From the NCBI RefSeq assembly GCF_021390195.1, contig NZ_CP090003.1, positions 4,051,501-4,115,500 of the forward strand: 64,000 nt of DNA. The letters are read 5' to 3'. The notes beneath the pieces are model-generated. The model ran no database searches, had not been told where the DNA came from, and saw only the letters and a program-made list of their open reading frames with translations. A program made the position numbers and the translations under genes. Positions 18,374 through 32,986 of the stretch are shown here, in pieces (position 1 is the stretch's first letter; every line of letters begins with the position of its first letter). This DNA is from Flagellimonas sp. CMM7 (GTDB taxonomy: Bacteria > Bacteroidota > Bacteroidia > Flavobacteriales > Flavobacteriaceae).

Positions 18374-18455
18374 CGTATAAACGTTTGATTCTGACAGAAA
18401 AATCAACGAACTTCGTTATCGGTTGATATAGCTCATTAAAACGAGACCATATCTT
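18374..18455 (+). repeat. Cassette-type intergenic element, short copy 1a
   Basis: Contains the hairpin core AACGAACTTCGTT (18405-18417) inside ATCAAC...GTTGAT arms, then CTCATTAAAACGAGACCATA and TCTTAAACG. It abuts the long copy 1b without a gene between them, as if a cassette had been lost. The preceding 18226-18373 holds no gene. It contains a 10-bp imperfect hairpin (TAGGTTGTTG at 18344 and CAATAACCTA at 18363). Confidence 0.65.
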
Positions 18456-18653
18456 AAACGATAACGAAACCTACTTCTTACTCTTTTCTTCTATTTATAT
18501 GATTTTGATAATTAGAATATAATAGTTGCTTAGCTGCTAATAACGCTTGGGACTAGAGCAGTATATTTTTTGAGTTTATAGGGGAAATCAACGAACTTCG
18601 TTGTTGGTTGATATAGTTCCCTAAAACGAGAACGTATCCTAAACGTTGTAGTA
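18456..18653 (+). repeat. Cassette-type intergenic element, long copy 1b
   Basis: Begins ATAACGAAACCTACTTCTTA and contains AACGCTTGGGACTAGAGCAG (18542-18561), TTTATAGGGG...TTCCCTAAAA stem arms, the core AACGAACTTCGTT (18590-18602) and the closing AAACGTTGTAGTA. It is about 90% identical by eye to copy 3 at 21290-21480. GTTGTAGTA (18645-18653) is the reverse complement of TACTACAAC at 20482-20490, beyond the next gene. From here to 18793 there is no gene, only leader sequence. Confidence 0.75.
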
Positions 18654-18793
18654 CATTCCTTGCATCAGAATCCAATTAATTCCTCGATCTAACAAGGAGA
18701 AAAAGACAATGATAAAGGAAGGAGTGTAATTAACTGATTGTTAATATAAATATTTAATTTTAAGCGAGATTATCAAATTAAAATCAATAATTT

Positions 18794-20470
18794 ATGAGAA
18801 TTAATTTTTTTTATGTTTTTTTATTTTTATCAGTGATGCTTTCTTGCACTGAGAAGGATGATGAATCTATGGAAGTAAAAGATTCTGCCATAACTATATC
18901 TGTAGAAGATTTAATTATAAGTATTAATGAAAATCCTAGTAATGATTTTGTTTTAGGAAAAGTTAAAGCTAAGACGAATAAAGGAAATTTAACGTATAGT
19001 ATCGAAGAACAAAATCCGAGTGAGGCTCTTTCTATTATTGATTCCACAGGAGAATTAGTAGTCAAAAACAATTCTCTTTTTGATTTTGAAGTTAACCCCA
19101 AAATAACTGCTAAAGTTAAAGTATCTAATCTTGATGTATTTGAATTAGTCACAGTAACTATTACTCTAAATAATATTGAAAACACAAGCTATATTAGTAT
19201 GATTAATGAAAATCACATTTGGGTTAGTAGTACTTATGATAATAATGATGGGTTCGATACCTTTATAGAACATAAAATTTATTTTAATGGTATCGACCTA
19301 GTTAATAATGAAACATACTTTAATTTATATTACAAACAAATAAACTATAGTTACGGTAGCCCTTGGTTTATAATAAATAATAGTTCGGTTGAAGATGAAG
19401 GACAGTTACTTTATAAAATAAGAGAAGATACTGAAAGAGAAAAAGTATATACTTTAGATAGTAATAATAACGAAGTTTTGCTTTACGATTTCTCCTTAGA
19501 AGTAAATGAAGCAGTTGATTTATGGGATCATAAAACGGGTAGTTATATTACACGAACTTTGGAATCTAAAGGTCAAGTTAAACTCTTAAATGGTGAAACT
19601 AGAAAACGAATGTTTTTTAATGACAATTATATTGTAATTGAAGGAATTGGCGCTTTATATAATTCCAATTCTAATACCGCTTTGTACTACCTTTTTAATG
19701 GAGATTTACCTTTATATGATGGGAAGAATTATCAATATGTAGACCTAAATGATTATTGGCAAGAAGGAGGACTACCTGTCATAAGTTTAAAGGAAGTTTC
19801 TCAAGTAGGTGATGAAATTATTTTTAGATCTAATTTATCAAGCGACGGAGGGAATTATATTGAAAATAATATTTTGGAAAAAGGTGTTTGTTGGAGCAGT
19901 ACTTCTAATACTCCAACAATCGATGATAGTCATACAATGGTTTTCTCAAATGAAAATGATGATGGTAGTAATAGAGTTAATTACCTGGGGACTTTTTATG
20001 CCTCTATTAATTATTCTGAATTACAACCAACCACTACCTATTATTTCAGAGCTTATTCAAAAAACAATAATGGCGTTGCCTATTCGAACACTATTTATAC
20101 CTTTGATACGACGTTCTTATCTATCACTTTAAATACCGAATTAATTAACCAAGAAGAAGAGATTGAAAATGGACGGAGAATTATTAAATATACCGTAGGA
20201 GGCAAAGTTGTATCAAATAACCTTCCTAGTTCCATTAGTATTATTGAAAAAGGTATAGCTGTTTTTAATAGGTTTAGATTTAGTAATGATCCAAACCCGA
20301 GTGAGAGCGAATATTACTCAATAGAAGCTGGCACTTTAGATAATTTTCAATATATACATTATATTGCTCCAGATGCTTATGACCCACTTACTGACCCTTT
20401 TCTTTATTCAGTTTTTTGGTCTTACGTAAAGCTTAGCAATGGACAAATTGTTTATGGAAACCCAGTATAA
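18794..20470 (+). CDS. Cadherin-like and Fn3-like repeat lipoprotein
   Basis: A 558-residue lipoprotein (lipobox VMLSC, C18). Residues 30-130 look like one cadherin-type repeat (LIISINENPSNDFVLGKVKA, NLTYSIEE, GELVVKN). A central region (150-330) has no recognised domain. Residues 340-430 match the Fn3-like module common in Bacteroidetes surface proteins (KGVCWSSTSNTPTIDD, TTYYFRAYSKNNNGVAYS). A degenerate second module may follow. It is probably exposed on the outer membrane. Base composition is clearly more AT-rich than in the flanking core genes. It forms the body of putative cassette 1 (18645-20490). Confidence 0.75.
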   Translation: MRINFFYVFLFLSVMLSCTEKDDESMEVKDSAITISVEDLIISINENPSNDFVLGKVKAKTNKGNLTYSIEEQNPSEALSIIDSTGELVVKNNSLFDFEVNPKITAKVKVSNLDVFELVTVTITLNNIENTSYISMINENHIWVSSTYDNNDGFDTFIEHKIYFNGIDLVNNETYFNLYYKQINYSYGSPWFIINNSSVEDEGQLLYKIREDTEREKVYTLDSNNNEVLLYDFSLEVNEAVDLWDHKTGSYITRTLESKGQVKLLNGETRKRMFFNDNYIVIEGIGALYNSNSNTALYYLFNGDLPLYDGKNYQYVDLNDYWQEGGLPVISLKEVSQVGDEIIFRSNLSSDGGNYIENNILEKGVCWSSTSNTPTIDDSHTMVFSNENDDGSNRVNYLGTFYASINYSELQPTTTYYFRAYSKNNNGVAYSNTIYTFDTTFLSITLNTELINQEEEIENGRRIIKYTVGGKVVSNNLPSSISIIEKGIAVFNRFRFSNDPNPSESEYYSIEAGTLDNFQYIHYIAPDAYDPLTDPFLYSVFWSYVKLSNGQIVYGNPV

Positions 20471-20481
20471 GAAAATTAACA

Positions 20482-20746
20482 TACTACAACACGAATATAT
20501 GAAGTCACAATACCCTAACGGGATATTACGCCTCATACATAAACCGATAACGAAACCTTCTTTCTACCTCCTACTTTTCTTCCATTTATATGATTCTGAC
20601 AACTAAAAACAGTAGTTTATTTAACTGTTAAGAACGCTTGGCACTAGAGCATTATATTTTTTTGAGTTTATAGGGAAAATCAACGATATTCGTTATCAGT
20701 TCATACAGCTCATTAAAACGAGACCACATCTTAAACGTTGTGTAGC
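20482..20746 (+). repeat. Cassette-type intergenic element, copy 2
   Basis: Starts with TACTACAACACG just after the lipoprotein gene and ends with TTAAACGTTGTGTAGC just before the next gene. Between them are ATAACGAAACCTTC, AACGCTTGGCACTAGAGCA and a variant core AACGATATTCGTT (20682-20694), in which the changed bases still leave AACGA...TCGTT paired. The right end matches the 3' boundary of the next gene unit at 21198-21210. Confidence 0.75.
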
Positions 20747-20759
20747 ATCTAATATAATT

Positions 20760-21194
20760 ATGGAATCAAATGTAGCATTATGGGAAATCATCCTTAAAGC
20801 AATCACTGTATTGATTGCTGTTATTGGATTTGCTTATCAAATAATCGGACTTGACCCTCAAAAGAGAAGTAGGTTAAAAACAGATTTAGAGATTCTTGAG
20901 AAGTTTAAAAAAAATGGATTAGAAGAAGAATATGAAAGATTATCCAATCACATAAAAAACCGAGTTCCTAGTATTTATCGAAAACCTGAAGAAACGGATA
21001 CAGTTCTCAGAATACCAGATATTCAAAGACTAATTATTGGAGTTATTCTTACAATTTTCTTTTCTGGTATTACTGTTTATTATTACATAAATTTAAATGG
21101 ATTTCAGTGGTGGATGGTAGTTACAACATTACTCGTTATATCTGGAATTGGAAATATATTGCAAGGTGTTTTAGGTGACTCAAGTAAAAAATAA
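20760..21194 (+). CDS. Hypothetical membrane protein (144 residues)
   Basis: No family recognised. One hydrophobic segment lies near residues 10-28, a charged helix follows (30-75, rich in Lys and Glu), and two more hydrophobic segments lie near 88-110 and 117-135. This gives three likely membrane spans around a cytoplasmic or periplasmic coiled region. The ATG is 13 nt from the end of element copy 2, so there is little room for a promoter. The gene is enclosed by the cassette-specific ends GTTGTGTAGC and GCTACATAACAAC, and makes up putative cassette 2. Confidence 0.7.
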   Translation: MESNVALWEIILKAITVLIAVIGFAYQIIGLDPQKRSRLKTDLEILEKFKKNGLEEEYERLSNHIKNRVPSIYRKPEETDTVLRIPDIQRLIIGVILTIFFSGITVYYYINLNGFQWWMVVTTLLVISGIGNILQGVLGDSSKK

Positions 21195-21197
21195 AAC

Positions 21198-21483
21198 GCT
21201 ACATAACAACGACTATAATTCATTATGGCGGATTTTCCTACGGAAAATCACTACCTATAAATTATCGCTTGGTCCTCGCGGACAATTCCACAACGAAACC
21301 TACTTCTTACTCTTTTCTTCTATTTATATGATTTTGATAACTAGAATATAATAGTTGCTTAGCTGCTAATAACGCTTGGGACTAGAGCAGTATATTTTTT
21401 GAGTTTATAGGGAAAATCAACGAACTTCGTTGTTAGTTGATATAGTTCCCTAAAACGAGAACGTATCTTAAACGTTGTAGGTA
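21198..21483 (+). repeat. Cassette-type intergenic element, copy 3
   Basis: Starts GCTACATAACAACGACTATA, includes a local hairpin (GGATTTTCCTACGGAAAATC, 21233-21252), then CAACGAAACCTACTTCTT, AACGCTTGGGACTAGAGCAG, the core AACGAACTTCGTT (21419-21431), and ends AAACGTTGTAGGTA. An imperfect stem pairs AACGCTT with AAACGTT and TTTATAGGGAA with TTCCCTAAAA. The 310 bases between genes hold nothing else. Confidence 0.75.
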
Positions 21484-21504
21484 AAATAAAAAAAACGACT
21501 AAAA

Positions 21505-21996
21505 TTGAATATAAGAAAAGCAACAGAATTCGATTTTGACAAAGTCTGGGAAATATTCTCAAAAGTCATTAATACTGGAGACACTTACGTCTTTAATCCA
21601 AATACACCAAAAGAGGATTTAAAAAGACATTGGTTTGCGGACTATATGGAAACTTATGTAGTTGAAGAGAACGGACAAATACTTGGCACATATATTATCA
21701 AACCTAACCAAATTGATTTAGGAAATCATATTGCAAATTGTAGCTATATGGTAAATCCGAATGCGCAAGGAAAGGGAATTGGAAAAAAACTTTGTGAACA
21801 CTCGCTTGAAATAGCAAGGAAGAGAAATTTCAAGGGTATTCAGTTTAATATTGTGGTAAGCACAAATAAAGGAGCAGTAGCGTTATGGAAAAAGTACGGA
21901 TTTCAAATAATTGGAACCACACCTAAAGGGTTTAGACATTCTAAACTAGGTTTAGTGGACACATACATTATGTATAAAGGCTTGAAAGAAAATTAA
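21505..21996 (+). CDS. GNAT family N-acetyltransferase
   Basis: A 163-residue GNAT enzyme that would acetylate a small molecule or a protein N-terminus using acetyl-CoA. MNIRKATEFDFDKVWEIF is the usual start of the pat-like (phosphinothricin-type) subgroup. The acetyl-CoA loop QGKGIG lies at residues 88-93. No in-frame ATG fits this N-terminus, so I use the TTG at 21505. The gene lies between GTTGTAGGTA (21474) and its exact reverse complement TACCTACAAC (22003), and makes up putative cassette 3. Only 21 nt separate the cassette end from the start codon. Confidence 0.85.
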   Translation: MNIRKATEFDFDKVWEIFSKVINTGDTYVFNPNTPKEDLKRHWFADYMETYVVEENGQILGTYIIKPNQIDLGNHIANCSYMVNPNAQGKGIGKKLCEHSLEIARKRNFKGIQFNIVVSTNKGAVALWKKYGFQIIGTTPKGFRHSKLGLVDTYIMYKGLKEN

Positions 21997-22002
21997 TAAA
22001 AC

Positions 22003-22222
22003 TACCTACAACAACAGCTATAATTAATTGCGGCTGAATTCCCTACCTCCTTTTTTTCTTCTATTCATATGATTCTGATTACTAGAAAACAGTAGTCATT
22101 TAGCCGTTAAGAACGCTTGGTGCCAGAGCAGTATATTTTTTTGAGTTTACAGGGAAAATCAACGAACTTCGTTGTTGACTGATACAGCTCATTAAAAGAG
22201 GCCATATCTTAAGCGTTATATA
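22003..22222 (+). repeat. Cassette-type intergenic element, copy 4
   Basis: Starts TACCTACAACAACAGCTATA, contains GAACGCTTGGTGCCAGAGCA, the core AACGAACTTCGTT (22161-22173) with flanking GTTGACTGATACAGCTCATT, and ends TTAAGCGTTATA. The left end AACAACAGCTATAATT matches those at 21206 and 32963. Confidence 0.72.
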
Positions 22223-22260
22223 TAAACTTAAAAGAAGAAGACTACAGATTAAGATTATCA

Positions 22261-23088
22261 ATGAATACCATAATTAATTCTTTTAAAAACCACATTAGTT
22301 TTTCAAATTTTTGGATTAGAAATGGCTTTATAATTGTAATGCTATCTATTTTAGTCAATCATCTTACGGAGCCAGAAAACTTCCCGTTTCATAGAGATTA
22401 TAAATTTCCTTTATTGCCTATTCTTGTTTCAATTATTGCAGGAAGTGTAGTATTTCTTATCGCTAGCTTTAATTTCAAATATTATAAAAACAAATACTTC
22501 GCAAAAAAAACGAACACTCAACTACTATTACGTTTCCTGTTCTCAACGTTAGGCTATATTACCATACTATATCTCTCTTTGTACTTTGGTTTAAACGGTT
22601 TTATTAATGGAACTGAATCATACAATATTTATTATCTATTAACTGGGCTATCGGTTACCTTACTAATGAACACGCTCCTAATTGCCATTTTATTTGCACC
22701 TGATATTTATAAACTTCACAAGCTTGTCTCCATAAAAGGTACACTTAAAGTTCAGCAAGGAGGTAAACTAACCTTAGTTAAGTATCCTGAAATTGCCTTT
22801 ATATACAGTGAAAACAAAATAGTATACATCATAAAAACTGATGGAGGTTCCGTTATTACAGATTTTACTTTAAATGAAGTTGAAAGTAAAATCAGCGAAC
22901 AAAGTTTTTTTAGAGCAAATAGACAAATAATTCTTCACCCGCGCTCTGTTAAACAAGTACAGTCCATAGAAAATGGAAAACTATCTGTGCTACTCAAACC
23001 TACTATTGCCAGCAAAAAACCTTTTCAGATAAACATTAGTAGGTATAAAAAACAAGAATTTATGAACTGGTTAGAGGGTAAGCTATAA
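22261..23088 (+). CDS. Membrane-bound LytTR-type transcriptional regulator
   Basis: A 275-residue protein with four likely transmembrane helices in the first 160 residues (near 20-35, 55-72, 92-112 and 130-152). A C-terminal LytTR DNA-binding domain follows (about 172-275: LVKYPEIAFIYSENKIVYII, FFRANRQIILHPRSVKQV). It has no receiver domain, so the signal is probably sensed through the membrane helices. A CPBP protease gene follows 115 nt downstream, with a strong hairpin directly before it, so the pair may be a regulator-target unit. Confidence 0.85.
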   Translation: MNTIINSFKNHISFSNFWIRNGFIIVMLSILVNHLTEPENFPFHRDYKFPLLPILVSIIAGSVVFLIASFNFKYYKNKYFAKKTNTQLLLRFLFSTLGYITILYLSLYFGLNGFINGTESYNIYYLLTGLSVTLLMNTLLIAILFAPDIYKLHKLVSIKGTLKVQQGGKLTLVKYPEIAFIYSENKIVYIIKTDGGSVITDFTLNEVESKISEQSFFRANRQIILHPRSVKQVQSIENGKLSVLLKPTIASKKPFQINISRYKKQEFMNWLEGKL

Positions 23089-23161
23089 AATACAATGATT
23101 ATTCAGCTATTATTTTGCTACCATTCAGTAAAAATGAGCTGTATATCACTGTTTATCTTGC

Positions 23162-23200
23162 TTTATCGTTTTTACTTCGTTTAAAATTAAAAACGATAAA
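23162..23200 (+). promoter_or_regulatory. 13-bp perfect inverted repeat before the CPBP gene
   Basis: TTTATCGTTTTTA (23162-23174) and TAAAAACGATAAA (23188-23200) are exact reverse complements around a 13-nt loop. The right arm ends 3 nt before the ATG at 23204. It could be an operator for the upstream LytTR protein or an RNA hairpin hiding the start site. It is not followed by a T run on the plus strand, so a forward terminator is unlikely. Confidence 0.6.
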
Positions 23201-23203
23201 AAA

Positions 23204-23854
23204 ATGAATAAGACCTTTTTCACTACAAAACTAATACCTGTAATCGCCGTTATTCTTTGCTGTATTCTATACCTATCTAGGTATGATCAAATAATCATAG
23301 CAGCATTAATACTATTATTGGCAAGTGCTATAGAGTATAAAAAAGATTGTTTTAAGTCTTTAGGCTTTCAACGTAAAAGAATAAATGCAAAAAGTCTATT
23401 AGTAACAGCGCCACTATTTGGTACAGCTCTTTTTCTGTTTTATTACTACATAATGGTGCCAGGTGTGACACATCTTACAGGACAACCCATGGACTTTTCT
23501 GCCTTTGAAACTTATACGGGGAACTTACCTGCCACAATGATTTTACTTGTTTTTATCTGGATATCGGCGGCATTCGGTGAAGAAATTGTCTTTAGAGGAT
23601 ATTTAATGAGACAGTTTACCAAGTTTTTTGGCTCAAGCAAAATAAGTCTTGTAGTTAACATTCTAATCTTCGGTTTTATTTTTGGGTGGATTCACGCATA
23701 TCAAGGAATAAGTGGTCAAATAATAACTGGTATTCTAGGTATGCTCTATGCGATGATTTTTCATATCCGTAAAGACGACTTGTGGTTCAATGTTGCTGCT
23801 CATGGTTTTTTTGATACCACTGCTTTGGTATTTATTTATTATGGTTGGAGTTAA
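23204..23854 (+). CDS. CPBP family intramembrane glutamic endopeptidase
   Basis: A 216-residue polytopic membrane protein of the CPBP/Abi family. The catalytic motifs are present: EEIVFR (E126, E127, R131), H164 in FGWIHA and H200 with D204 in AAHGFFD. Related proteins process prenylated substrates or give immunity to self-made bacteriocins. Its stop codon TAA overlaps the first bases of the next repeat element (GTTAAGAATGCTTGG), so the element's usual left half has been deleted up to the gene end. The pairing with the LytTR gene upstream suggests coregulation. Confidence 0.88.
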   Translation: MNKTFFTTKLIPVIAVILCCILYLSRYDQIIIAALILLLASAIEYKKDCFKSLGFQRKRINAKSLLVTAPLFGTALFLFYYYIMVPGVTHLTGQPMDFSAFETYTGNLPATMILLVFIWISAAFGEEIVFRGYLMRQFTKFFGSSKISLVVNILIFGFIFGWIHAYQGISGQIITGILGMLYAMIFHIRKDDLWFNVAAHGFFDTTALVFIYYGWS

Positions 23855-23960
23855 GAATGCTTGGGACTAGAGCAGTATTTTTTTTTGAGTTTATGGCGAA
23901 AAGCAACGAACTTCGTTGTCGCCCGTTGTAAGGCGTTAAACGAGACCATATTTTAATAGA
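23852..23960 (+). repeat. Cassette-type intergenic element, copy 5 (left half missing)
   Basis: Begins GTTAAGAATGCTTGGGACTA, which is the middle of the complete elements, then the core AACGAACTTCGTT (23905-23917) and CGAGACCATATTTTAA. The left terminal sequence with CTACAAC is absent, and the right GTTGTAG end is also not recognisable. The 305-nt gap to 24160 holds no gene that I see. Confidence 0.65.
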
Positions 23961-24159
23961 TGCCAAACATATTAGCATAAGTAGAGCACATGAAAACTGA
24001 TAAATGATTAATACTGACAATCGTTATAGCATTAAACACTGTCTTTGTTCAAGAAAATATTGAAAAAACTTCAGGCAACCATTTGATAAAATTAAATGTC
24101 ATATAAGTAATGGCTTATATGCTAAACCTAAAGTGTGAAAAATTCTCAATAGTTATTTT

Positions 24160-25020
24160 ATGATGAAAAATCCCATAATGCTGTCGCTTGTACTTCTAAT
24201 TTTTGGTTGTAAAGAACAAGATATAATACCAGCAAAAACCATTGAAAGTGTAAACAGTAAAGAAGTACTGCTAGTTGGAACATTTCATTACAACAATCCT
24301 GGGGCCGATGTGGCGAAAACAAAGTCATTTGATATCCTGAACGAAAAGTCGCAACTTGAACTAAAAGAAATTTCCGTGAGTATCAAAAAATACAATCCAA
24401 CCAAAATATTCGTGGAATGGCCCTATAACGAGCAAAAAGAATTAGACTCTTTATATCAACTATATACAAGCGGAAACTATTTTGAAAACGATAGTCTTTC
24501 CGATTTTTACCTTAAAAATGAAATATTCCAATTGGCATTTAGGGCAGCAAAGGAAAATAATCTAACAACCCTTTATGGTATTGATTATTCTACCTCATTT
24601 CCTTTTGGAGATGTCATGGCTGCCATTGAACAAAACAATCAATCCGAGCTTAAAGCGCAGATAGAAAATGGCATTTCTAAGTTTACAGCAGAATTTGATG
24701 ACAAAATTGATTCTGGAGCTTCACTTAAGGAGCTCACCTATTACCTTAATAGTCCTGAAATGCGCAGTTTTTCCAACAATTTTCATAATAATTTAATGTT
24801 GATGGCTGGAAAACCAAATGATTTTTCCGGCCCACTCTTAACCGCTGAATGGTTTAAGAGAAATCTGTACATGTGGTCCTTAACACAAAAGAACACAGGC
24901 CCCTCTGATGAAAGAATCATGGTTCTGGTTGGCGCAAGTCATGCTGCTATGTTTGAATTGTTCATAAGGGAAAATGAAGATTGGGAAATCAAAGAATTGA
25001 AAGAACTAATGGAAAAATGA
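24160..25020 (+). CDS. DUF5694-like lipoprotein (TraB/erythromycin-esterase-like fold suspected)
   Basis: A 286-residue lipoprotein (LIFGC lipobox, C17). The mature part has LLVGTFHYNNPG, PTKIFVEWPYNEQ, LYGIDY and VLVGASHAAMFELFIRE. These invariant His, Glu and Gly-rich strands are typical of DUF5694 proteins, which are distantly related to TraB and haem-binding/erythromycin-esterase-like proteins. The molecular function is not known. The ATG pair at 24160 and 24163 gives two equivalent starts. Confidence 0.72.
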   Translation: MMKNPIMLSLVLLIFGCKEQDIIPAKTIESVNSKEVLLVGTFHYNNPGADVAKTKSFDILNEKSQLELKEISVSIKKYNPTKIFVEWPYNEQKELDSLYQLYTSGNYFENDSLSDFYLKNEIFQLAFRAAKENNLTTLYGIDYSTSFPFGDVMAAIEQNNQSELKAQIENGISKFTAEFDDKIDSGASLKELTYYLNSPEMRSFSNNFHNNLMLMAGKPNDFSGPLLTAEWFKRNLYMWSLTQKNTGPSDERIMVLVGASHAAMFELFIRENEDWEIKELKELMEK

Positions 25021-25053
25021 TACCTGTTATGCGCTCTTTCCAATCCAATAGGT

Positions 25054-25119
25054 CAACTTCTTGATTATGAGTTAAAATTCATCGAACTTCGTTTTAAGCC
25101 GTTGATGCTTATCTCATCT
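25054..25119 (+). repeat. Hairpin-core intergenic element, copy 6 (degenerate)
   Basis: CTTGATTATGAGTTAAAATT, the core ATCGAACTTCGTT (25081-25093) and GCCGTTGATG. The outer parts are diverged but the order TTGAT-TGAG-core-GTTGAT is shared with the copies at 30115 and 32197. Confidence 0.5.
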
Positions 25120-25147
25120 ATTTGGCAGCACTATTTAAAACGACATT

Positions 25148-25702: not shown

Positions 25703-25724
25703 AGCTTAATTTAAAGCTTTTTTT
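25702..25724. terminator. Short bidirectional terminator-like hairpin
   Basis: AAGCTT (25703-25708) and AAGCTT (25714-25719) surround a 5-base loop and are followed by a T run. It lies between the converging RidA gene and the 1000-residue gene. The stem is only about 6-7 bp. Confidence 0.4.
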
Positions 25725-25743
25725 GATAAAAATTTAGCCCTAA

Positions 25744-28700
25744 TCAGTACGGAAGCATCCCATTATTGGACAGATTCATGACTTTGTATTTTACGTTTCG
25801 TTGACGTAACGTAATCATTTTTACATCTTCCTCATTGGTTTGGTTGTTTCTTAATGTGAACTTCAAATATGTTGGTAAATTGACCTGATTGCCTAAATAG
25901 GTCATGTTTATCAACCATTGTCCCTGTTGCATATCATCAATATCAAAACTTTCAGATAATGCTCCTTGTAAACGCTTTTCATTAGCAATTTCTGTCGCAT
26001 TGTTCCAATTGTAATACTGGCCTTGAGGATTTACAAATTGAAGTTCAAATTGAGTGTTGGGGTCGTTCCATTCAACCAATAAACTATAATTACTCTGTTC
26101 TTCAAACACAAATTTCGATTTGTCTATCCCAATTTCCTCGCCATGCCCTTGCAATACATCCAACATCTCTTCCTTAACAATTTGGTCCAATCCTTTACTT
26201 TCAAGAATGTTCTGTATACCAATGTAACTCTTGTACATATTCCATGCTTCTTTATACTCCCCTACTTCAACAAGCATTTTTGCTAAATCCCGTTTTGCCT
26301 GCGGAGTCTCTTTAATGGCATGAATTTGTTTATAAATGGATAGGGCTTCTTGATTTTGCTGTTCTTCCTCATGGGCATAAGCAAGAATTTTAAGCGCGTC
26401 TATTTGTTCGGGAAATTGCTCCAGTAGATTTGATTTTATACGATTCGCTTTTCTTGGATCATTCCAATGATCATCAAAGATTTTACTGGCTTCAAAATAA
26501 AAACTGGGGGTGTGTCCATAGTTTTTTCTATCACTTACATATTGTGCGTACGCTTTATCTACTGTAGGTGAATTGGCTATTCGTTGCGCATAGAGCGGTT
26601 TACTTGCTAATCCATTGGCCAATTCAATAGCATCATTGGAGTATACATTCTGTGATTTGTTTTTAGAATCTTCAGTGACTTCTATACCATCAAACGTATT
26701 ACTTATGGTACGAACAATGATGATTCCACCCGGAGCCAAACTACCATACCTGGCAGCTGACCAAGCAGGTGGCATTAGCGTTATGTCTTTTATATTTTGA
26801 AGGTTAATGTGAAATGGAGGGTCATCAGCTGGATATACATGCCCGTCAACGTCCCAAGACATTGGCCTCCTCCTGTACATTACTATCTCATAATCTTCTG
26901 GATATTTTCTTACCACATCAATACCCGCAAATTTGCCTTCTACAGCATCCATTAGTGTCTGTGCTGACGGACTAATTTGCGAACCTTCCATTTGCTTAAC
27001 ACTAAAACCAACTTTATTCATGTCCAGAACACCAAAACGTGTATTGATATTTTTGTTTATGGGTTTATGAAGTTCCTTTAATCTTGCATTTTCTTCCAAG
27101 ACCACTTCATCCAAAGCCGTAATGCCCAATGGCATAATAATCTTCAGCATTCGTGCCGATGTATTGACCACTGTTGAAGTAGCCTCTCTTCCTGGGTATG
27201 AAAAATCCAAAACCTCCCCATTAAGCGCTTTAATGGAAAAATTACCTCTAGAATTTGTCCTAGTTTGTCTATCACTATCTCGCACCTTAACCAGCACATT
27301 TTGTAAGGGGGTATCCAAATCGCCAACGCTACCCGTAACCTCTGATAACTTCTGAACCGTTCGGTTCGTGTATTCCAAGTTGTCCACCATGTAGCGCTCC
27401 GTAAATTGAACCGCCAACGCCATGTTGTCCAGTTTTTCAAGGTTGATGTAATTTCCGCCATGTTCTTCGGCTATTTCTTTTAAAAGGGTATGATTGGCAG
27501 TATTGTCACCATTTATGGTAAACAGCGTACCGTACCAATCTTTGGTGGCATCCACGGGAAAGTTTTTCCCATCGGTAAAGAACAAGGTTTGTTGAGAGGT
27601 TTCCAGTTTTTCCCAAAGCCTATGATCAATGGCCCCATCATAGATGGTAGATTCAATAGTCTTTTTTAACGTACCCCAATCACCGTTAGCGATTTTATGA
27701 GACGTTCTTTCCCCAAGATAATAGCTCATCGGTTGAAAATCTACCTGTACATCTCCCAAATTTTTAAAGTAGTTATCTAAAAAACGGAATTCTTTATCCA
27801 GATTTCTATCCTTCATCGATAGCGAAGTGTCCCAAAGCAGCATTATGTTGCTGGGTTTATCCCTGAGCTTGGCTTTTACTTCAACAATCTTTTCTTCTTT
27901 CTCTACGGCAGACGTGTTTAGGTTGAAAGCAATCGTAAATCCCTTTCGCATGCGCTTCCACCGATCTTGACTCAATAGCCTGGTATATGACCTAGACCCA
28001 TCATCAAAGGCAGAAATTCCAATACCTACCCTACCCCCATAAATTTTTAAAAGCTCCAAGCTTATTACAAAATGGGAATCCACTACAATGTTGTACGGAG
28101 AAAGGTCTATAGCAATAGTGCCTTGTCGCTGTCTTATGGTATATAAAATGTTTCCGTTGGAGATATTTTTTCCAGGAAGCCCGTTTTCAAACTCATACAC
28201 GTTTACACGCACCAATAGGCTATCCGAGATATTGGCGATGATATTGAAAGAAACATCCTCTAGTTTTAGAGGGCCTTTGCGCATCAATATTTTTGAGGCG
28301 TGTTCCCCTCCCAACGCCAAACTATCGTTCCAAAATCCAAAAAGGCGTTTGGATCTGCTTTGGTACCCAACCTTTCTTTTGTCCGCATCACTACTTTTAA
28401 CGGTAACCCCTTCAAGTTCATAAGGAACGGGCTCCAAACCAATAGCCTGGTCTGTCTTAAGCATTTCGATAAACGCTTGGGTAGAGAACTTGAGTGTTTT
28501 ATAACCTATCCGGGATATTTGAAGGATGTCTTTTTGATTGATTTCATTTTCATCCAATTCGAATTTAAAAGTGCCATCAAAATCTGAAACGGTTCCTTTT
28601 GCACGATCTACCACTCCAATATTAGCAAAGTCTACAGGTTTTCCCGTGCTCAATTCGATAATGCTCCCTTCAACGGTAATTTGACCACTTAATTGATTGC

Positions 28701-28746
28701 AAAACACAAAAATAAATACCAGAAAAACTACCCTTAAACCACCCAT
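25744..28746 (-). CDS. Multidomain secreted protein: carboxypeptidase-regulatory-like, VWA, TonB-plug-like and TPR regions
   Basis: A 1000-residue exported protein (signal peptide 1-21). Residues 24-110 form a carboxypeptidase-regulatory-like beta-sandwich (ELSTGKPVDFANIGV, GTVSDFDGTFKF). Residues 300-455 look like a VWA domain with a DTSLS MIDAS motif (306-310) and TDGKNF. A second regulatory-like domain follows at about 468-545. Residues 560-690 resemble the plug of TonB-dependent receptors (TLMDAVEGKFAGIDVV, APGGIIIVRT). TPR-like helices lie at about 770-860. There is no TonB-receptor beta-barrel. It may be a surface scaffold that borrows receptor parts. The first residues (MGGLRVV) are a reasonable start. 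Confidence 0.72.
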   Translation of the reverse strand: MGGLRVVFLVFIFVFCNQLSGQITVEGSIIELSTGKPVDFANIGVVDRAKGTVSDFDGTFKFELDENEINQKDILQISRIGYKTLKFSTQAFIEMLKTDQAIGLEPVPYELEGVTVKSSDADKRKVGYQSRSKRLFGFWNDSLALGGEHASKILMRKGPLKLEDVSFNIIANISDSLLVRVNVYEFENGLPGKNISNGNILYTIRQRQGTIAIDLSPYNIVVDSHFVISLELLKIYGGRVGIGISAFDDGSRSYTRLLSQDRWKRMRKGFTIAFNLNTSAVEKEEKIVEVKAKLRDKPSNIMLLWDTSLSMKDRNLDKEFRFLDNYFKNLGDVQVDFQPMSYYLGERTSHKIANGDWGTLKKTIESTIYDGAIDHRLWEKLETSQQTLFFTDGKNFPVDATKDWYGTLFTINGDNTANHTLLKEIAEEHGGNYINLEKLDNMALAVQFTERYMVDNLEYTNRTVQKLSEVTGSVGDLDTPLQNVLVKVRDSDRQTRTNSRGNFSIKALNGEVLDFSYPGREATSTVVNTSARMLKIIMPLGITALDEVVLEENARLKELHKPINKNINTRFGVLDMNKVGFSVKQMEGSQISPSAQTLMDAVEGKFAGIDVVRKYPEDYEIVMYRRRPMSWDVDGHVYPADDPPFHINLQNIKDITLMPPAWSAARYGSLAPGGIIIVRTISNTFDGIEVTEDSKNKSQNVYSNDAIELANGLASKPLYAQRIANSPTVDKAYAQYVSDRKNYGHTPSFYFEASKIFDDHWNDPRKANRIKSNLLEQFPEQIDALKILAYAHEEEQQNQEALSIYKQIHAIKETPQAKRDLAKMLVEVGEYKEAWNMYKSYIGIQNILESKGLDQIVKEEMLDVLQGHGEEIGIDKSKFVFEEQSNYSLLVEWNDPNTQFELQFVNPQGQYYNWNNATEIANEKRLQGALSESFDIDDMQQGQWLINMTYLGNQVNLPTYLKFTLRNNQTNEEDVKMITLRQRNVKYKVMNLSNNGMLPY

Positions 28747-28812
28747 AGAAGAATTTGTTTCCCCTAAACTAATAAAATGATTAAATATTCATTCGTCAAT
28801 TAATCAATATTA

Positions 28813-28832
28813 TTTTCATTTCGAAATGAAAA
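28813..28832. promoter_or_regulatory. Perfect 20-bp palindrome between divergent genes
   Basis: TTTTCATTTCGAAATGAAAA is identical to its reverse complement. It lies 66 nt before the 1000-residue gene (minus strand) and 115 nt before the serine hydrolase gene (plus strand), a good position for a repressor site serving both. Confidence 0.55.
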
Positions 28833-28947
28833 GCTTCTAAAGGGTTAAAAATAGTAGACCCGCTGCGTTTTAAAATTCATTAGAAAAAAACAATGAATGT
28901 TGTAACTATTTTCTTTTTCCCAAGTATACCTGTTATAAAACAAAACA

Positions 28948-30054
28948 ATGAAACTCAAATTAGCATTAGTATCCATTTTGACAATTTCTAATATTACAAA
29001 CGGTCAAAAGCAGCACAATGATTATGAAATGATTCAGGCAGAATGTAATAGTTTATTGCTTGACCAGGAGATACAAGCCGTTTCGTTAGGAGTTATCACA
29101 AATGGTAACGTGTATAAATTTCACCTAGGTAAGTTAACTACCGGAGAAACACCAAATGAAGATACCTTATATGAGATAGCTTCCTTGACCAAAACATTTA
29201 CAGGGACTTTGCTGGCGCAAGCCATTTCGGAAAAGAAGGCAACTATGGATGATGATATCAGAAATCATTTATCCGAGAACTTTCCCAACTTAGAATTTAA
29301 CCAAAAACCCATTACGTTTCGCCATTTGGTGACGCACACTAGCGGTTTGCCTAGGATTTTCCCTGATAGCCCTGGACTCTTTGAAAATCCCGATTGGGAT
29401 AACCTTCCCTATGAAATCAACAAACTACAAGCGGGATTTAGTGAATCTCAATTTTTAGAAGAACTGCATCAAGTAACATTGGATACCATTCCCGGATTTA
29501 AATTCGGTTATTCAAATGCTGGAGCTAATTTGCTAGGTTTTTGTTTGGAAAATATTTACGGTAAGACCTACGAGAAATTGTTATCCGAATATATTCTTGA
29601 ACCTCTTCAAATGACGAAAACTCGTATTACCGCTCCTTCTGGGGAAAATAAAAAGCTGTTGGCCTTGGGGCTCAACCCAAATGGTTTGGTGATGCCCTCT
29701 AGAGCAGAAAAAGAAATGAAGGCAGAAGGCGGATTATTTTCAACACTGGACGATATGATAAAGTACATGGAATTTCAGCTAAACGAAGCAAATGAAGTAG
29801 TGAAAATTTCCCATCAAGAGTTATTGAACGGAAGATATGGGGATTTTGAAAATGGTTTGTTCTGGCAAATCTTTAAGAATGGGCAAAGCCATACAAAAAT
29901 CTTTCAAAATGGGGGAGCTTATGGAACTTCCAGTTGGCTGACCATTATTCCAGAATCTAAAGTTGGAGTAATTATTCTAACCAATGTATCCGGTCCCACA
30001 ATACATGAAAAGTTAAATGCAACGGCAGATAGGATAATTGAGCGTTTAGAATAA
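28948..30054 (+). CDS. Serine hydrolase, class C beta-lactamase fold, secreted
   Basis: A 368-residue protein with a signal-like N-terminus (MKLKLALVSILTISNITNGQ). The active-site motif SLTK (S79, K82) is in YEIASLTKTF. A YSN triad (FGYSNAG) and a closing NGGAYGTSSW segment in place of KTG complete the class C-type active site. Esterase or peptidase activity is as likely as beta-lactam hydrolysis. It is the first of a run of plus-strand genes each followed by a hairpin-core element. Confidence 0.87.
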   Translation: MKLKLALVSILTISNITNGQKQHNDYEMIQAECNSLLLDQEIQAVSLGVITNGNVYKFHLGKLTTGETPNEDTLYEIASLTKTFTGTLLAQAISEKKATMDDDIRNHLSENFPNLEFNQKPITFRHLVTHTSGLPRIFPDSPGLFENPDWDNLPYEINKLQAGFSESQFLEELHQVTLDTIPGFKFGYSNAGANLLGFCLENIYGKTYEKLLSEYILEPLQMTKTRITAPSGENKKLLALGLNPNGLVMPSRAEKEMKAEGGLFSTLDDMIKYMEFQLNEANEVVKISHQELLNGRYGDFENGLFWQIFKNGQSHTKIFQNGGAYGTSSWLTIIPESKVGVIILTNVSGPTIHEKLNATADRIIERLE

Positions 30055-30064
30055 ACTGGTTGCT

Positions 30065-30182
30065 ACAATGGTTTTAGACCATTGTTAAGAAGTAAGCAAT
30101 AATCCATGATAATGCTTCTTGATTCTATGAGGATAATCAACGAACTTCGTTATCAAAGGAAATTGAACCCTAAATAGTGATA
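30065..30182 (+). repeat. Hairpin plus hairpin-core element, copy 7
   Basis: Directly after the serine hydrolase gene, ACAATGGT (30065-30072) and ACCATTGT (30078-30085) form a perfect 8-bp stem. The repeat core follows as GAGGATAATCAACGAACTTC GTTATC (core 30139-30151), with an 8-base GATAATCA/GTTATC relation extending the stem. It resembles the copy at 32197. Confidence 0.6.
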
Positions 30183-30205
30183 CCCTTTAGAAAGAAACTT
30201 CGAAA

Positions 30206-30979
30206 ATGAAGATCAAAACCCTCAAAGGATTATTTATCAGGCATAACAAAATAGATGAGAACAGACAGTCAATTTGGTTTTTACATGGATTTGCCGATTC
30301 CGGATTGGCATACAAAGAGGTTTTTGATTCGAACCTTTCTCCTGAATTTAATCTTTATGTGGTGGACTTACCAGGATTTGGTGTCAGCCCTTTAAATAAA
30401 GACTATGTATCTATCAAGGAACAGGCAGATTTGCTCTCGGAAATAATTCAAACGGAAACCAAAAACAGTGGAAAAGTAAATGTTGTAGCCCATTCCATTG
30501 GTGCACAGATAGGAACTTGGGTTTGTGAGAAACTGTCAGATAAAATCAATTGTTTTTTTAATATAGAAGGTAATTTGACCGAGGCGGACAGTTATTTTTC
30601 AAGCAAACCTTTGAGTTTTAAAACTGCCGAAGATTTTGTGAAATCATTTGAAGATGAAATTTTTGAAAACGCAATCGGTGAAGAAAGGTTTAGGAGATAT
30701 TACAGCAGTTTAAGATTTGCCGAGCCACAAGGAATGCGTAACTGGGCATTTACAAGTCAAGAACATATAAAAAACAATAAATGCGGATTTGAATTTAAAA
30801 ACCTGAGCTGCAATAAAATATATATTTGGGGAGATTTGGATACACCAAAAGAAACGCAGAATTTTATAAAAGAACAAAATATCCCGAATAGACTATACAA
30901 AGGAATTGGTCACTGGCATATGGTCGAAAATGCAAAAAACTTATATGATGATATTAACAGCTTCCTAAAAACAGTATAG
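30206..30979 (+). CDS. Alpha/beta hydrolase
   Basis: A 257-residue cytoplasmic hydrolase. HGFADSG is the oxyanion-hole loop. S97 in AHSIGAQ is the nucleophile (GxSxG-like, with A in the first position). The catalytic Asp is probably in YIWGDLDTP, and the His in GIGHWHMVE. No substrate can be assigned. It is flanked by hairpin-core elements on both sides. Confidence 0.88.
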   Translation: MKIKTLKGLFIRHNKIDENRQSIWFLHGFADSGLAYKEVFDSNLSPEFNLYVVDLPGFGVSPLNKDYVSIKEQADLLSEIIQTETKNSGKVNVVAHSIGAQIGTWVCEKLSDKINCFFNIEGNLTEADSYFSSKPLSFKTAEDFVKSFEDEIFENAIGEERFRRYYSSLRFAEPQGMRNWAFTSQEHIKNNKCGFEFKNLSCNKIYIWGDLDTPKETQNFIKEQNIPNRLYKGIGHWHMVENAKNLYDDINSFLKTV

Positions 30980-31070
30980 AGGAATGGTTGTAATTAGAAT
31001 GAACCTATGGGCTTAGATGCTATAATGTAAGTTGTTAAAAATTGGACAATAACCTTAGGTCTAACCTTTT

Positions 31071-31140
31071 CATTCCGAAAGAAAAATTACGAACTTCGTT
31101 ATCGTTGGATATAAATCACTTTTATGATTTATATTGTTCT
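31071..31140 (+). repeat. Hairpin-core intergenic element, copy 8
   Basis: ACGAACTTCGTTATCGTTGG (from 31089) with following ATATAAATCACTTTTATGAT, itself a small inverted repeat. It keeps the core and the GTTGGATATAAA tail seen at 32217-32244. Confidence 0.55.
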
Positions 31141-31163
31141 AACCATATACCATTAAACAAAAA

Positions 31164-31973
31164 ATGAAAAAAATATTCTCACTATTAATTTTTGTTATAG
31201 TAAGTTACTGCTCATCTGCTCAAGATACTATTTGTATAAGTAATACGATTGAGCATAGTATCTATTCCAAACATTTAAATGAGAATAGAAATTACTGGAT
31301 TAGCTTACCTCTAAAATATTCTGATTCAATAAAATACCCAGTTATTTACGTTTTTGATGCAGAATGGAGGTTTGATTTGATTAAAAATATAACTTTTGAT
31401 TTGGGAGCAAACGAGAAAATTAAAAACTCAATAGTTGTAGGAATCCCGCATATTGATTGGAATAAAAAAAGGGGACTTGATCTTACTTTTAGTCAATCGA
31501 GAATAGAATATGATGGTGAAGAAGTGGACTCAACTTGGTACAATGGTTCAAATTCTGGGGAAGGAATGAAATTTTACAACTATTTAACGGAAGAGCTAAT
31601 TCCAGATGTAAATAAGAAGTATGCTACAAATAATCACGAAACACTGATCGGTCATTCTTACGGAGGCTATTTTGGTGGATACATACTATCATTGGACCAT
31701 CCATTTGAAGTAATACATATATACGATCCTGCTATTTGGTTTAGTAATGGAGAGGTAACCAACAGATTTAAAAAATACCAATATAATAAGCCAACTAAAA
31801 TTCATTTAACCTATCAGCCCAAGCCTGAATTTCATAAAAATAAAATAGAAGAGTTTATCAATGAACTCAAAAAGAATCAGAATATCATTTTAACGACCAA
31901 CCTCTATGATTCAGAAACTCATAATTCATTGTTTTTAGATAGCTTTTATCAAGGAATTTTAAAAACAAATTAG
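31164..31973 (+). CDS. Secreted esterase of the Fes/IroE-like (putative esterase) alpha/beta family
   Basis: A 269-residue protein with a signal peptide ending near SSAQ (residue 20). The beta-sheet entrance PVIYVFDAEW and the nucleophile motif GHSYGG (S165) are typical of the esterase D/enterochelin-esterase-like superfamily. The His is probably in DSETHNS near residue 253. Related enzymes cleave siderophore or sugar esters; the substrate here is unknown. The gene is unusually AT-rich compared with the core genes to its right. Confidence 0.83.
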   Translation: MKKIFSLLIFVIVSYCSSAQDTICISNTIEHSIYSKHLNENRNYWISLPLKYSDSIKYPVIYVFDAEWRFDLIKNITFDLGANEKIKNSIVVGIPHIDWNKKRGLDLTFSQSRIEYDGEEVDSTWYNGSNSGEGMKFYNYLTEELIPDVNKKYATNNHETLIGHSYGGYFGGYILSLDHPFEVIHIYDPAIWFSNGEVTNRFKKYQYNKPTKIHLTYQPKPEFHKNKIEEFINELKKNQNIILTTNLYDSETHNSLFLDSFYQGILKTN

Positions 31974-32044
31974 CTGCATACAGCTAGAGCCATAGTCAAC
32001 ATGGTTGATGCTCTTATCTCCTGTTCCTTTCTAAAATCATAAAA

Positions 32045-32071
32045 TGTCATTTCGAGTGCAGTCGAGAAATC
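32045..32071. repeat. REP-like palindrome (TGTCATTTCGA...TCGAGAAA)
   Basis: TGTCATTTCGAGTGCAGTCG followed by AGAAATC. The TCGA/TCGA arms around GTGCAG resemble the copy at 62143-62166 (TCTCGACTCCGTTCGACATG), and it carries the same TGTCA end in the opposite orientation. Confidence 0.55.
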
Positions 32072-32196
32072 TTTACAAGGGTATTCTTAAATAGGCCCAG
32101 TGATGGGGAACCTAGATTTCGCTCACTCATTACATTTTATTTTAAATGACAATAGGTTAGTAGTTTAAAACAGGTAATAAGTTGAAGTATTAACCC

Positions 32197-32279
32197 TTGA
32201 TTCTGTGAGGATAATCAACGAACTTCGTTATCCTTGGATATAAACCATTAAAACGGATTATATCTTTTTAGTTACTATG
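32197..32279 (+). repeat. Cassette-type intergenic element, copy 9
   Basis: TTGATTCTGTGAGGATAATC, the core AACGAACTTCGTT (32217-32229), CCATTAAAACGGATTATATC and the end TTTTTAGTTACTATG. GTTACTATG (32271-32279) is the exact reverse complement of CATAGTAAC at 32957-32965, beyond the next gene. The 349-nt gap after 31973 also holds the REP-like repeat at 32045; nothing else is seen. Confidence 0.72.
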
Positions 32280-32322
32280 TATTGAAGAAAATGTTTATGA
32301 AATCGATATAGTAAAGAAAATT

Positions 32323-32951
32323 ATGACTGTAATAAGCCAACTTTCATCATCATTAGGGCAGAAAGGGAATGATGCAAATATAGCCTTAGCTAAAGAAATT
32401 GCAGAAACTGAAAATAGTTATGCGATTAAAGAACTTGTTCAAAATTTGGGGAATAAGGATAAAAAATACAAGCAGATTGTATAAAAACACTGTATGAGAC
32501 AGCCTATATAAAGCCTGGTTTGATTGCCGAATATTATGCTGAGTTTTTAGGATTATTATCAAATAAAAACAATAGATTGGTTTGGGGAGGAATGATTGCT
32601 TTATCGACAATTTCAGATTTGAAAAGTAAGGAGTTATTTGAATCAATAGAGCAGATTTCTAGCACTGTAAATAAAGGTTCTGTAATAACGGTTGATGCTG
32701 GAGTTGAGATATATACAAAACTCAATAAATATTCAGAGTTTCAAGACAAAGTTGAAAACTTACTGACTGACCAACTGTGGAAATGTCCAATTAAACAATT
32801 GCCTAAATACATAGAAAAATCAACTATCTCTATCAATGAAAAGAACAAGGAAATTTATCAAAAAATAATAAATGAACGAATGACAGAATGTGAAAAGGAG
32901 TCACAGGTAAAAAGGCTTGATAAAATACTTAAACTGATTCATAAAATATAA
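32323..32951 (+). pseudogene. Frameshifted helical-repeat-like protein (one A lost in a homopolymer)
   Basis: From the ATG at 32323 the frame reads MTVISQLSSSLGQKGNDANI...NLGNKDKK and then stops at 32484. One extra A in the A6 run near 32459-32466 would join it to IQADCIKTLYETAYIKPGLI and on to the stop at 32951, giving about 209 residues. The predicted protein is all-helical with HEAT-like pairs. No family is named with confidence. It is the content of a putative cassette with ends GTTACTATG and CATAGTAAC. The shift may be real or a homopolymer sequencing error. Confidence 0.7.
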
Positions 32952-32956
32952 AAACG

Positions 32957-32978
32957 CATAGTAACAATAGCTATAACG
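32957..32978 (+). repeat. Cassette 3' half-site without right half
   Basis: CATAGTAACAATAGCTATAA CG is the left end of an element: AACAATAGCTATAAC matches AACAACAGCTATAAT at 22009. The rest of the element is missing and the minus-strand glycosyltransferase gene begins its 3' end at 32987, so this is the right border of the array. Confidence 0.6.
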
Positions 32979-32986
32979 AAACTCTT

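Follow-up and report, generated by a model that had tools for sequence, protein, structure and literature searches.

Positions 18374-32985 of a 64,000-nucleotide window from Flagellimonas sp. CMM7 (the whole stretch of DNA analysed here) contain four gene units that each start with a short sequence and end with its reverse complement. Are these units gene cassettes of an integron-like system, as a preliminary description had inferred, and if so, which enzyme moves them? Our results support the inference: arrays that obey this end rule recur in other genomes, a tyrosine recombinase gene lies near array starts, a relative differs in content precisely at these borders, and shuffled controls point the same way. 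We read the window, with a probability of about 0.87, as a partly decayed cluster of integron-type movable gene cassettes.

Candidate cassettes and insertion target in the window

The quoted arms of all four units were found where they had been placed (Table 1), and the window indeed lacks an integrase. The claim that all genes in this region share a single orientation has to be given up, as the stretch 25744-28746 lies on the minus strand. The intercassette stretches are composite, with attC-like sites or halves of them joined to a repeated insertion-target element, the leader; most sites are truncated or fused, and no recombinase adjoins the array. The sites had been called non-canonical and about 200-290 bp long. 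The former stands. As to length, the attC-like hairpins of relatives have a median of 124 nt, and those of the window appear longer because they are fused to the target element. When three whole stretches were folded, the z-scores were -2.58, -0.26 and -1.61, values that we attribute to the composite nature of these stretches. In the window, the gathering score was not reached by any Rfam family. A further match to the site model lies at 29475-29595.

Table 1 Features of the cassette array in the window
Feature	Coordinates	Strand	Details
Unoccupied leader/insertion-target copy	18374..18460	+	comparison with G361, whose alignment ends at 18460
Second leader copy, immediately 5' of cassette 1	18540..18644	+	
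Cassette 1	18645..20490	+	arms GTTGTAGTA (18645) and TACTACAAC (20482-20490); ORF 18794-20470, 558 aa
attC-like site of cassette 1, then the target's ATAACGAAACC	20488..20546	+	
Leader copy 5' of cassette 2	20547..20736	+	
Cassette 2	20737..21210	+	arms GTTGTGTAGC (20737) and GCTACATAACAAC (21198-21210), three-base bulge; ORF 20760-21194, 144 aa
attC-like site of cassette 2	21205..21315	-	covariance model from other loci: 40.4 bits, E 1.1e-8
Leader copy 5' of cassette 3	21292..21473	+	
Cassette 3	21474..22012	+	arms GTTGTAGGTA (21474) and TACCTACAAC (22003-22012); GNAT acetyltransferase 21505-21996
Left half of cassette 3 attC-like site (AACAACAGCTATAATTAATTGCGG), then leader sequence	22010..22040	+	
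Probable decayed cassette, start GTTATATATA after leader	22215..23088	+	LytTR gene 22261-23088
Leader-like copy 5' of cassette 4	32167..32270	+	
Cassette 4	32271..32965	+	arms GTTACTATG (32271) and CATAGTAAC (32957-32965); longest ORF 32520-32951
Truncated attC-like left end (AACAATAGCTATAAC)	32963..32977	+	

The start of the cassette 1 ORF is lipoprotein-like on our own reading, and neither this ORF nor that of cassette 2 has a Pfam match above the cut-off. Homologues of the cassette 3 gene sit between different flanks in two other genomes (G312 and G314). Cassette 4, whose reading frame appears broken on our reading, has an 87% homologue with identical border positions in G229, where it adjoins a recombinase. 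The LytTR unit has no matched end, and 80% of shuffles equal its best match.

The leader-bearing stretches 21292-21480 and 18463-18651 are 98% identical, and the leader element is dispersed across the genus. It is one repeated palindromic element whose stem weakly matches the attC model (12.5 bits, E 0.28). A syntenic relative, G361, holds a different cassette within the same flank where the window has an empty site, so the expected change of content at exact borders does occur. Its junctions read ..AAACG/TTGGCACA..cassette..ACCG/ATAACGAAACC, that is, exactly G/TT..G/ATAACG (slashes mark the junctions). In sequence comparison the junctions are compatible with recombination at G^TT, and in the empty target copy the crossover would fall between G18460 and A18461 (AAACG^ATAACGAAACC). 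Empty forms of the target also occur in L084 and L085, and one array in G157 has identical cassette copies. Searches with the element DNA matched 9 of 299 family genomes, our own among these, and gave no match against plasmids and phages; for wider counts they were replaced by pattern and model searches.

Unit-specific ends and covarying hairpins

Matched ends by themselves are not rare in the window, since 36 pairs of GTT plus six bases lie 200-2600 bp apart, against 23.1 (sd 5.1) in Markov-1 shuffles. The signal from the window alone is modest, and the question is settled by relatives. When we anchored on each unit start and shuffled the downstream stretch 500 times, the match of unit 1 was reached in 0.6% of shuffles, that of unit 3 in none and that of unit 4 in 1.6%, while the match of unit 2, counted without its three-base bulge, was not significant (45%).

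Among 163 end motifs from genus loci (up to 2 mismatches allowed), 46% have a match of at least 6 nt after an upstream GTT, a rate that falls to 2.7% when ends of different units are combined and to 1.8% on the downstream side, so the match runs across the gene and is unit-specific, as the preliminary description had held. A search of other genomes for ends of this kind recovered tandem arrays of mostly single-ORF cassettes. In a stricter set of 198 chained cassettes (an earlier looser set includes chance pairs), the arms are 9-10 nt long in 196 and the longest ORF lies on the array strand in 172. Between unit 4 and its G229 homologue the two ends differ in concert (GTTACTATG..CATAGTAAC vs GTTACCATG..CATGGTAAC). 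As in integrons, the inverted R boxes belong to one and the same cassette.

Each cassette holds its ORF between GTT-R-N5-(A/C)-A and the reverse complement ending in AAC, followed by an attC-like site laid out as AAC, about 3 nt, L'' box, variable loop, L' box, about 6 nt and GTT. We aligned 48 of 67 listed sites, at lengths of 112-132 nt (alignment A3). In their stem 95.9% of cells are paired, double changes occur in 14 of 16 pairs, and 147 cells are compensatory compared with 41.7 after shuffling, a value reached in 0 of 500 shuffles; slid controls were far lower. The L boxes pair within their own site (at least 6 of 8) in 81% of cases, compared with 38.5% for another locus's site and 11% for shuffled sequence.

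Could these be ordinary transposon-derived or REP-like repeats whose ends match by chance? The leader element is dispersed like a repeat, and about 23 GTT-plus-six pairs are expected by chance per 64 kb window. However, the arms are inverted and unit-specific, for which reason we rejected transposon target duplications, and the consistent arm length, the failure of swapped ends to pair, the two unit 4 arms changing in step and the stem covariation also speak against such repeats, making this explanation extremely unlikely.

The sites share with integrons a foldable R''-L''...L'-R' hairpin with bottom-strand polarity, where polarity means folding stability: the bottom strand folds more stably in 131 sites against 12, with little strand bias in canonical control sites (37 vs 27). 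They depart from integrons in the extrahelical bases on the R''-L'' arm, which were found in 34 of 147 of our sites and in 66 of 67 canonical ones (64/147 and 67/67 with a softer bulge penalty). The 147-site "short" set is defined by locus collection, so a recombinase need not adjoin each site; genus loci that hold the short recombinase described below have extrahelical bases in 2 of 39 sites, and the other groups of the set in 9/37, 10/47 and 13/35. The canonical sites came from 21 of 30 sampled loci. A G.T pair at columns 24/130 of alignment A3 is invariant in 48 of 48 sites.

A short recombinase at array starts

The tyrosine recombinase sought near an array end is present in relatives and also in the CMM7 genome, where its locus at 3.42 Mb lies 39 bp from a cassette start; an integrase gene beside the array start, as in integrons, is found there, but not for the window array nor for 17 of 18 further site-rich stretches. 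All 17 genus recombinases have a motif-to-motif span of 58 residues and lack the ~42-residue IntI insertion, whereas the span is 100 residues in all 29 measurable rows of canonical IntI (30 rows, 28 distinct). Apparent spans of 100-101 in L215, L219 and L237 were pattern errors. IntI4 (2a3v) aligns to the short recombinase in two stretches, with the insertion skipped, and the IntI-specific extra domain of integron integrases is absent from these proteins. Columns R242, K267, H331, R334, H357 and Y366, which we take to be those with catalytic roles, are invariant across 16 proteins. Seven tested recombinases scored 199.8-229 bits with NF040815, and two reached its cut-off of 220; in five, some 85-115 N-terminal residues have no Pfam match, and more where the SAM-like domain went unrecognised. 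An AlphaFold model gave a pLDDT of 82 and a pTM of 0.53.

The short recombinases might be bystanders or separate mobile elements, with host XerC/D or another enzyme moving the cassettes. They are about equally near XerA/XerC-like proteins and IntI by sequence, and 17 of 18 further site-rich stretches (13 genomes) had no recombinase ORF by our filter, so many arrays lie remote from one. A point against our main reading is that 18 of 32 Bacteroidota recombinase loci have no matched unit within 250 bp. Against the bystander explanation, the remaining 14 of the 32 Bacteroidota loci have a matched unit starting 23-247 bp downstream (2.3 expected), compared with 2 of 39 other loci (1.8 expected). 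These loci, with Bacteroidota sorted by hand, form a similarity-only sample (71 of 80 used, namely those in which we located the recombinase ORF and which extend 700 bp past it). This is a fairer test than the 21 genus loci, because the latter were partly chosen for known nearby arrays; 10 of these 21 have a matched unit no more than about 150 bp away, with both orientations represented. In a quick tree, from which we excluded rows lacking the motif and four nearly identical or fragmentary sequences (L178, L183, L185, L189), the short recombinases do not group with the host's XerC/XerD rows (98-99 SH-aLRT) and form a different clade from canonical IntI. We consider the bystander explanation quite unlikely.

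Alternatively, the window could be a canonical integron cluster (CALIN) mobilised by ordinary IntI. The architecture is identical, and 5 of the 10 phylum canonical IntI loci first examined (L295, L297, L299, L300 and L301) have the same chained across-gene arms. Of 395 phylum genomes, 105 also have an IntI over its cut-off. However, this holds for 0 of 70 genus genomes (TIGR02249 cut-off) and 1 of 98 own-class genomes (hand count), canonical sites nearly always carry the extrahelical bases scarce here, and our site model gave 4 matches in 30 canonical loci (474 kb), all in L336. This explanation is very unlikely. The model has at least one match in 153 of the 295 class genomes sampled, with the canonical loci as its control. 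L336 is a canonical IntI locus with 3-4 sites of the present type, 72 of 109 matching genomes lie outside the class, and canonical IntI exceeds the cut-off in 25 of these 72 (hand comparison); the site type is thus not tied to a single enzyme, and some of these sites could be substrates of host XerC/D or of IntI. The pattern AACAAYRGCTATAA occurs in 53 of 70 genus genomes, well above its reversed control; at phylum scale it is not clearly above control and serves only as a list of genomes. A gene-swapping system with integron organisation is found in many Bacteroidota.

Proposed mechanism and relation to known systems

We then propose a mechanistic model based on sequence comparison. The bottom strand of the site would fold into a hairpin and be recombined at G^TT by the short tyrosine recombinase, whose gene neighbours array starts in many Bacteroidota and is present at 3.42 Mb in this genome. 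The partner would be an attI-like site, a second attC-like site or the repeated leader element (AAACG^ATAA). Cassettes may enter and exit as circles, and G.T wobbles together with an asymmetric spacer may direct strand choice in place of extrahelical bases. In our judgement the system is a new variant, organised and probably working like an integron but without the IntI domain by which membership is decided. We give even odds to the broader proposal of a second Bacteroidota integron lineage, in which a short integrase free of the IntI domain performs folded-strand cassette recombination, and strand choice is encoded in polarised G.T wobbles and an asymmetric spacer; in that case either IntI and extrahelical bases are later elaborations of this ancestral design, or hairpin-cassette recombination arose twice.

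If the enzyme works, folded-strand cassette recombination needs neither the extra domain nor the extrahelical bases, which have been called essential or key (PMC8138268, PMC2727003), the origin of integrons becomes testable, and a large, mostly uncounted pool of mobile genes is exposed. Because surveys recognise integrases by the IntI-specific domain (PMC9668308), they would not score arrays beside a short recombinase as complete integrons. With IntegronFinder 2.0, a complete Bacteroidetes integron is reported in Salinibacter ruber, and the lack of complete integrons in certain clades is termed intriguing in the same paper (PMC9024848).

The likeness to integrons and CALINs is extensive: tandem, mostly single-ORF cassettes with across-gene arms, an attC-like hairpin of the bottom strand whose spacers are unpaired and whose end varies, a G after the AAC of R', junctions that fit G^TT and, in part of the loci, an array start with a recombinase and an attI-like stretch. 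In attG-type sites, a non-cassette target receives a cassette at a single G. The present target likewise appears to admit cassettes at one G, but it is one repeated palindromic element, unlike the attG-type sites named among unusual integron sites in PMC12901181. The arms of 9-10 nt compare with 9-11 nt reported for integrons (PMC2727003). IntI is recognised through its extra domain (PMC9024848, PMC9668308), an insertion termed essential for integron function (PMC8138268), and the present recombinases differ in lacking it and in their clade, as do the sites in mostly lacking R''-L'' extrahelical bases and in their polarised G.T wobbles. With XerA/XerC-like tyrosine recombinases (NF040815, titled site-specific tyrosine recombinase/integron integrase; PDB 4a8e, 5hxy) they share the catalytic core, but the present proteins adjoin cassette arrays and most of those tested bear extra N-terminal residues. 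They may be among the members without the IntI domain in the "integron-like" recombinase subgroup of PMC8138268; for these members the relevant parts of that paper mention neither cassette arrays nor attC-like sites, in contrast to the arrays and hairpins reported here.

Matched cassette ends in the window and across the genus

All four pairs of matched inverted ends claimed in the preliminary description are present in the window at the stated positions (see the table). Over the whole window, 36 pairs of GTT plus six bases were found 200-2600 bp apart, against 23.1 (sd 5.1) in shuffles. Shuffle tests anchored on the individual units bore out units 1, 3 and 4 (0.6%, 0 of 500 and 1.6%, respectively), whereas the match of unit 2 rests on a bulge. 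By themselves, the four pairs are a weak signal.

Features of the window and of the own-genome recombinase locus
Feature	Coordinates	Remark
Leader, empty copy	18374..18460
Leader palindrome	18398-18462	Dispersed across the genus; acts as a repeated insertion target
Unit 1	18645..20490
Unit 2	20737..21210	A3-model site, E 1.1e-8
Unit 3	21474..22012
Site-model match	29475-29595	24.9 bits, E 1.4e-4; within ORF 28948-30054
Short repeat	32030-32082	Around CATTTCGAGTGCAGTCGAGAAATC; matches in several genus genomes
Unit 4	32271..32965
L188	G000:C1:3414000-3430000	Own-genome locus holding recombinase and cassettes

Arrays that follow the same end rule were found in other genomes of the genus. The end motif AACAAYRGCTATAA is present in 53 of 70 genus genomes, frequently as same-strand runs, with six ends within 4 kb in one relative (G321). 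Among 163 ends in the fetched loci, the bases preceding the motif recur reverse-complemented directly after an upstream GTT (at least 6 nt) in 46%, compared with 2.7% when another end's bases are used and 1.8% downstream. From 49 loci, strict criteria retained 198 chained cassettes, and the arms measure 9 or 10 nt in 196 of them, a finding that amounts to a sharp upper limit, since 9 nt is the minimum arm by construction. The longest ORF lies on the array strand in 172 of these cassettes; the median ORF coverage is 0.93 and the leader 26 nt.

Probable cassette exchange at the leader element

A change of content at the exact cassette borders, as foreseen for related strains, was observed in one relative (G361). 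Its flank aligns with the window up to 18460, beyond which it carries another cassette (GTTGGCACA..TGTGCCAAC); at this place the window has an empty site, followed by units 1-3. With a slash marking each junction, the empty site reads AAACG/ATAACGAAACC, the junctions of the G361 cassette read AAACG/TT and ACCG/ATAACGAAACC, and the right junction of window unit 1 is again ACCG/ATAACGAAACC. These junction sequences fit insertion at a single G. Among 26 leader copies from the window and genus loci (hand count), ATAA comes next in 3 (empty), GTT in 20 and neither in 3, and 13 of the 20 GTT-followed copies have a matched end within 2.7 kb.

Unit 4 has a homologue in another relative (G229) with 87% identity over 32271-32976 and unrelated flanks, and the differences at its two ends match each other. 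Further homologues of unit 4 (G306 and G321) and of the unit 3 gene (G312 and G314) give alignments that span most of the unit, their matched starts not being clean. One array region of G157 (loci L313 and L314) contains a 547 bp cassette twice and an 822 bp cassette four times, the copies being 100% identical.

Recombinases beside the arrays

The reported absence of an integrase from the window stands: none of the own genome's 24 TIGR02249-like places lies within it. Sub-cut-off TIGR02249 matches adjoin arrays, and in some loci of relatives and in one locus of the own genome a tyrosine recombinase lies near the array start. Matched cassettes start at most about 150 bp from the recombinase, in the same or divergent direction, in 10 of 21 loci that were partly picked for nearby arrays; the own genome is among the ten, with a gap of 39 bp. 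In a named collection of 71 usable loci selected solely by recombinase similarity, a matched unit starts at most 250 bp downstream of the recombinase in 14 of 32 Bacteroidota loci (2.3 expected from shuffles) and in 2 of 39 non-Bacteroidota loci (1.8 expected). Collection loci with an adjacent matched unit include Winogradskyella, Seonamhaeicola, Rufibacter and Zunongwangia. Judging by the closest named relatives of its recombinase, the host of the window belongs to the Bacteroidota and probably to the Flavobacteriaceae. Three loci (L216, L243 and L305), which represent Spirochaetota, Peregrinibacteria and a different class of the phylum, may hold similar arrays or sites.

Of seven proteins tested, all contain PF00589 and six contain PF13495. 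A long N-terminal stretch without a Pfam match is present in five, with about 85-115 residues ahead of the SAM-like domain in proteins for which this was recognised. The same two motifs are separated by 58 residues in the short recombinases of the genus (17/17) and by 100 residues in canonical IntI (29/29 measurable rows). A quick tree unites 57 rows (SH-aLRT 91), almost all of them from Bacteroidota and all 17 genus proteins among them, separate from canonical IntI (99) and the genome's own Xer (98-99).

attC-like sites and comparison with canonical integrons

Median site length between matched units is 124 nt. An alignment of 48 attC-like bottom strands (A3) has a common 16-pair outer stem with 95.9% of cells paired, double changes in 14 pairs and one G.T pair invariant in 48/48 sites. 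The L boxes vary from site to site and pair within their own site. Compensatory cells number 147, compared with 41.7 in shuffles (0 of 500), and the covariation score is 0.576, compared with 0.05-0.16 in slid controls, the structure being derived from the same alignment, which favours it somewhat. A covariance model built from A3 matches 18 places of the own genome at E of at most 1 and gives 110 matches in 18 further stretches picked for such matches. The match within an ORF at 29475-29595 may be due to chance; no matched ends were found around it. In 30 canonical IntI loci the model gives four matches, every one in L336 (from G372), a canonical locus with 3-4 sites of the short-system type in which mixed use is possible.

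The cut-off for canonical IntI (TIGR02249) is exceeded in 0 of 70 genus genomes and in 105 of 395 from the phylum; by hand count, one of these 105 falls among the 98 genomes that belong to the own class. With a threshold of E 0.001 and no shuffled control, site-model matches are present in 153 of 295 genomes of the class and in 109 of 296 of the phylum. Among the latter, 72 lie outside the own class, and 25 of these also have canonical IntI (hand comparison); a given site type therefore does not always go with one enzyme. The short and canonical systems may exchange cassettes.

Together, it is very likely that the array system works like an integron. Judged by two marks of the integron family as currently defined, it falls short: the IntI domain is absent and the extrahelical base mostly absent. 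Among the papers listed in searches of an open-licence PMC library, no account of such arrays, or of integrons lacking the extra domain, in the own class was recognised; the system may be described in print elsewhere, for example in subscription papers or preprints.

When analysed with identical code, canonical IntI loci of the phylum likewise show chained across-gene arms (5 of the first 10 loci). The stems differ, in keeping with the earlier description of the sites as non-canonical: the R''-L'' arm carries an extra base in 66/67 canonical sites versus 34/147 short-system sites (Fisher p 1.9e-28; sites that share an array are not independent). When the bulge penalty is softened, the counts become 67/67 and 64/147. 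By source, the extra base occurs in 2/39 sites from genus loci with the short recombinase, 10/47 from other genus loci, 9/37 from named loci and 13/35 from other genomes. G.T to T.G pairs stand at 50:41 in canonical and 327:129 in short-system sites, and the bottom strand is the more stable in 37 vs 27 and 131 vs 12 cases, respectively. As described in two papers, extrahelical bases steer strand choice and contact the integrase (PMC2727003), and the insertion is termed essential, yet is not fully conserved within its subgroup (PMC8138268). We infer a link between the lack of the insertion and the lack of the extrahelical bases.
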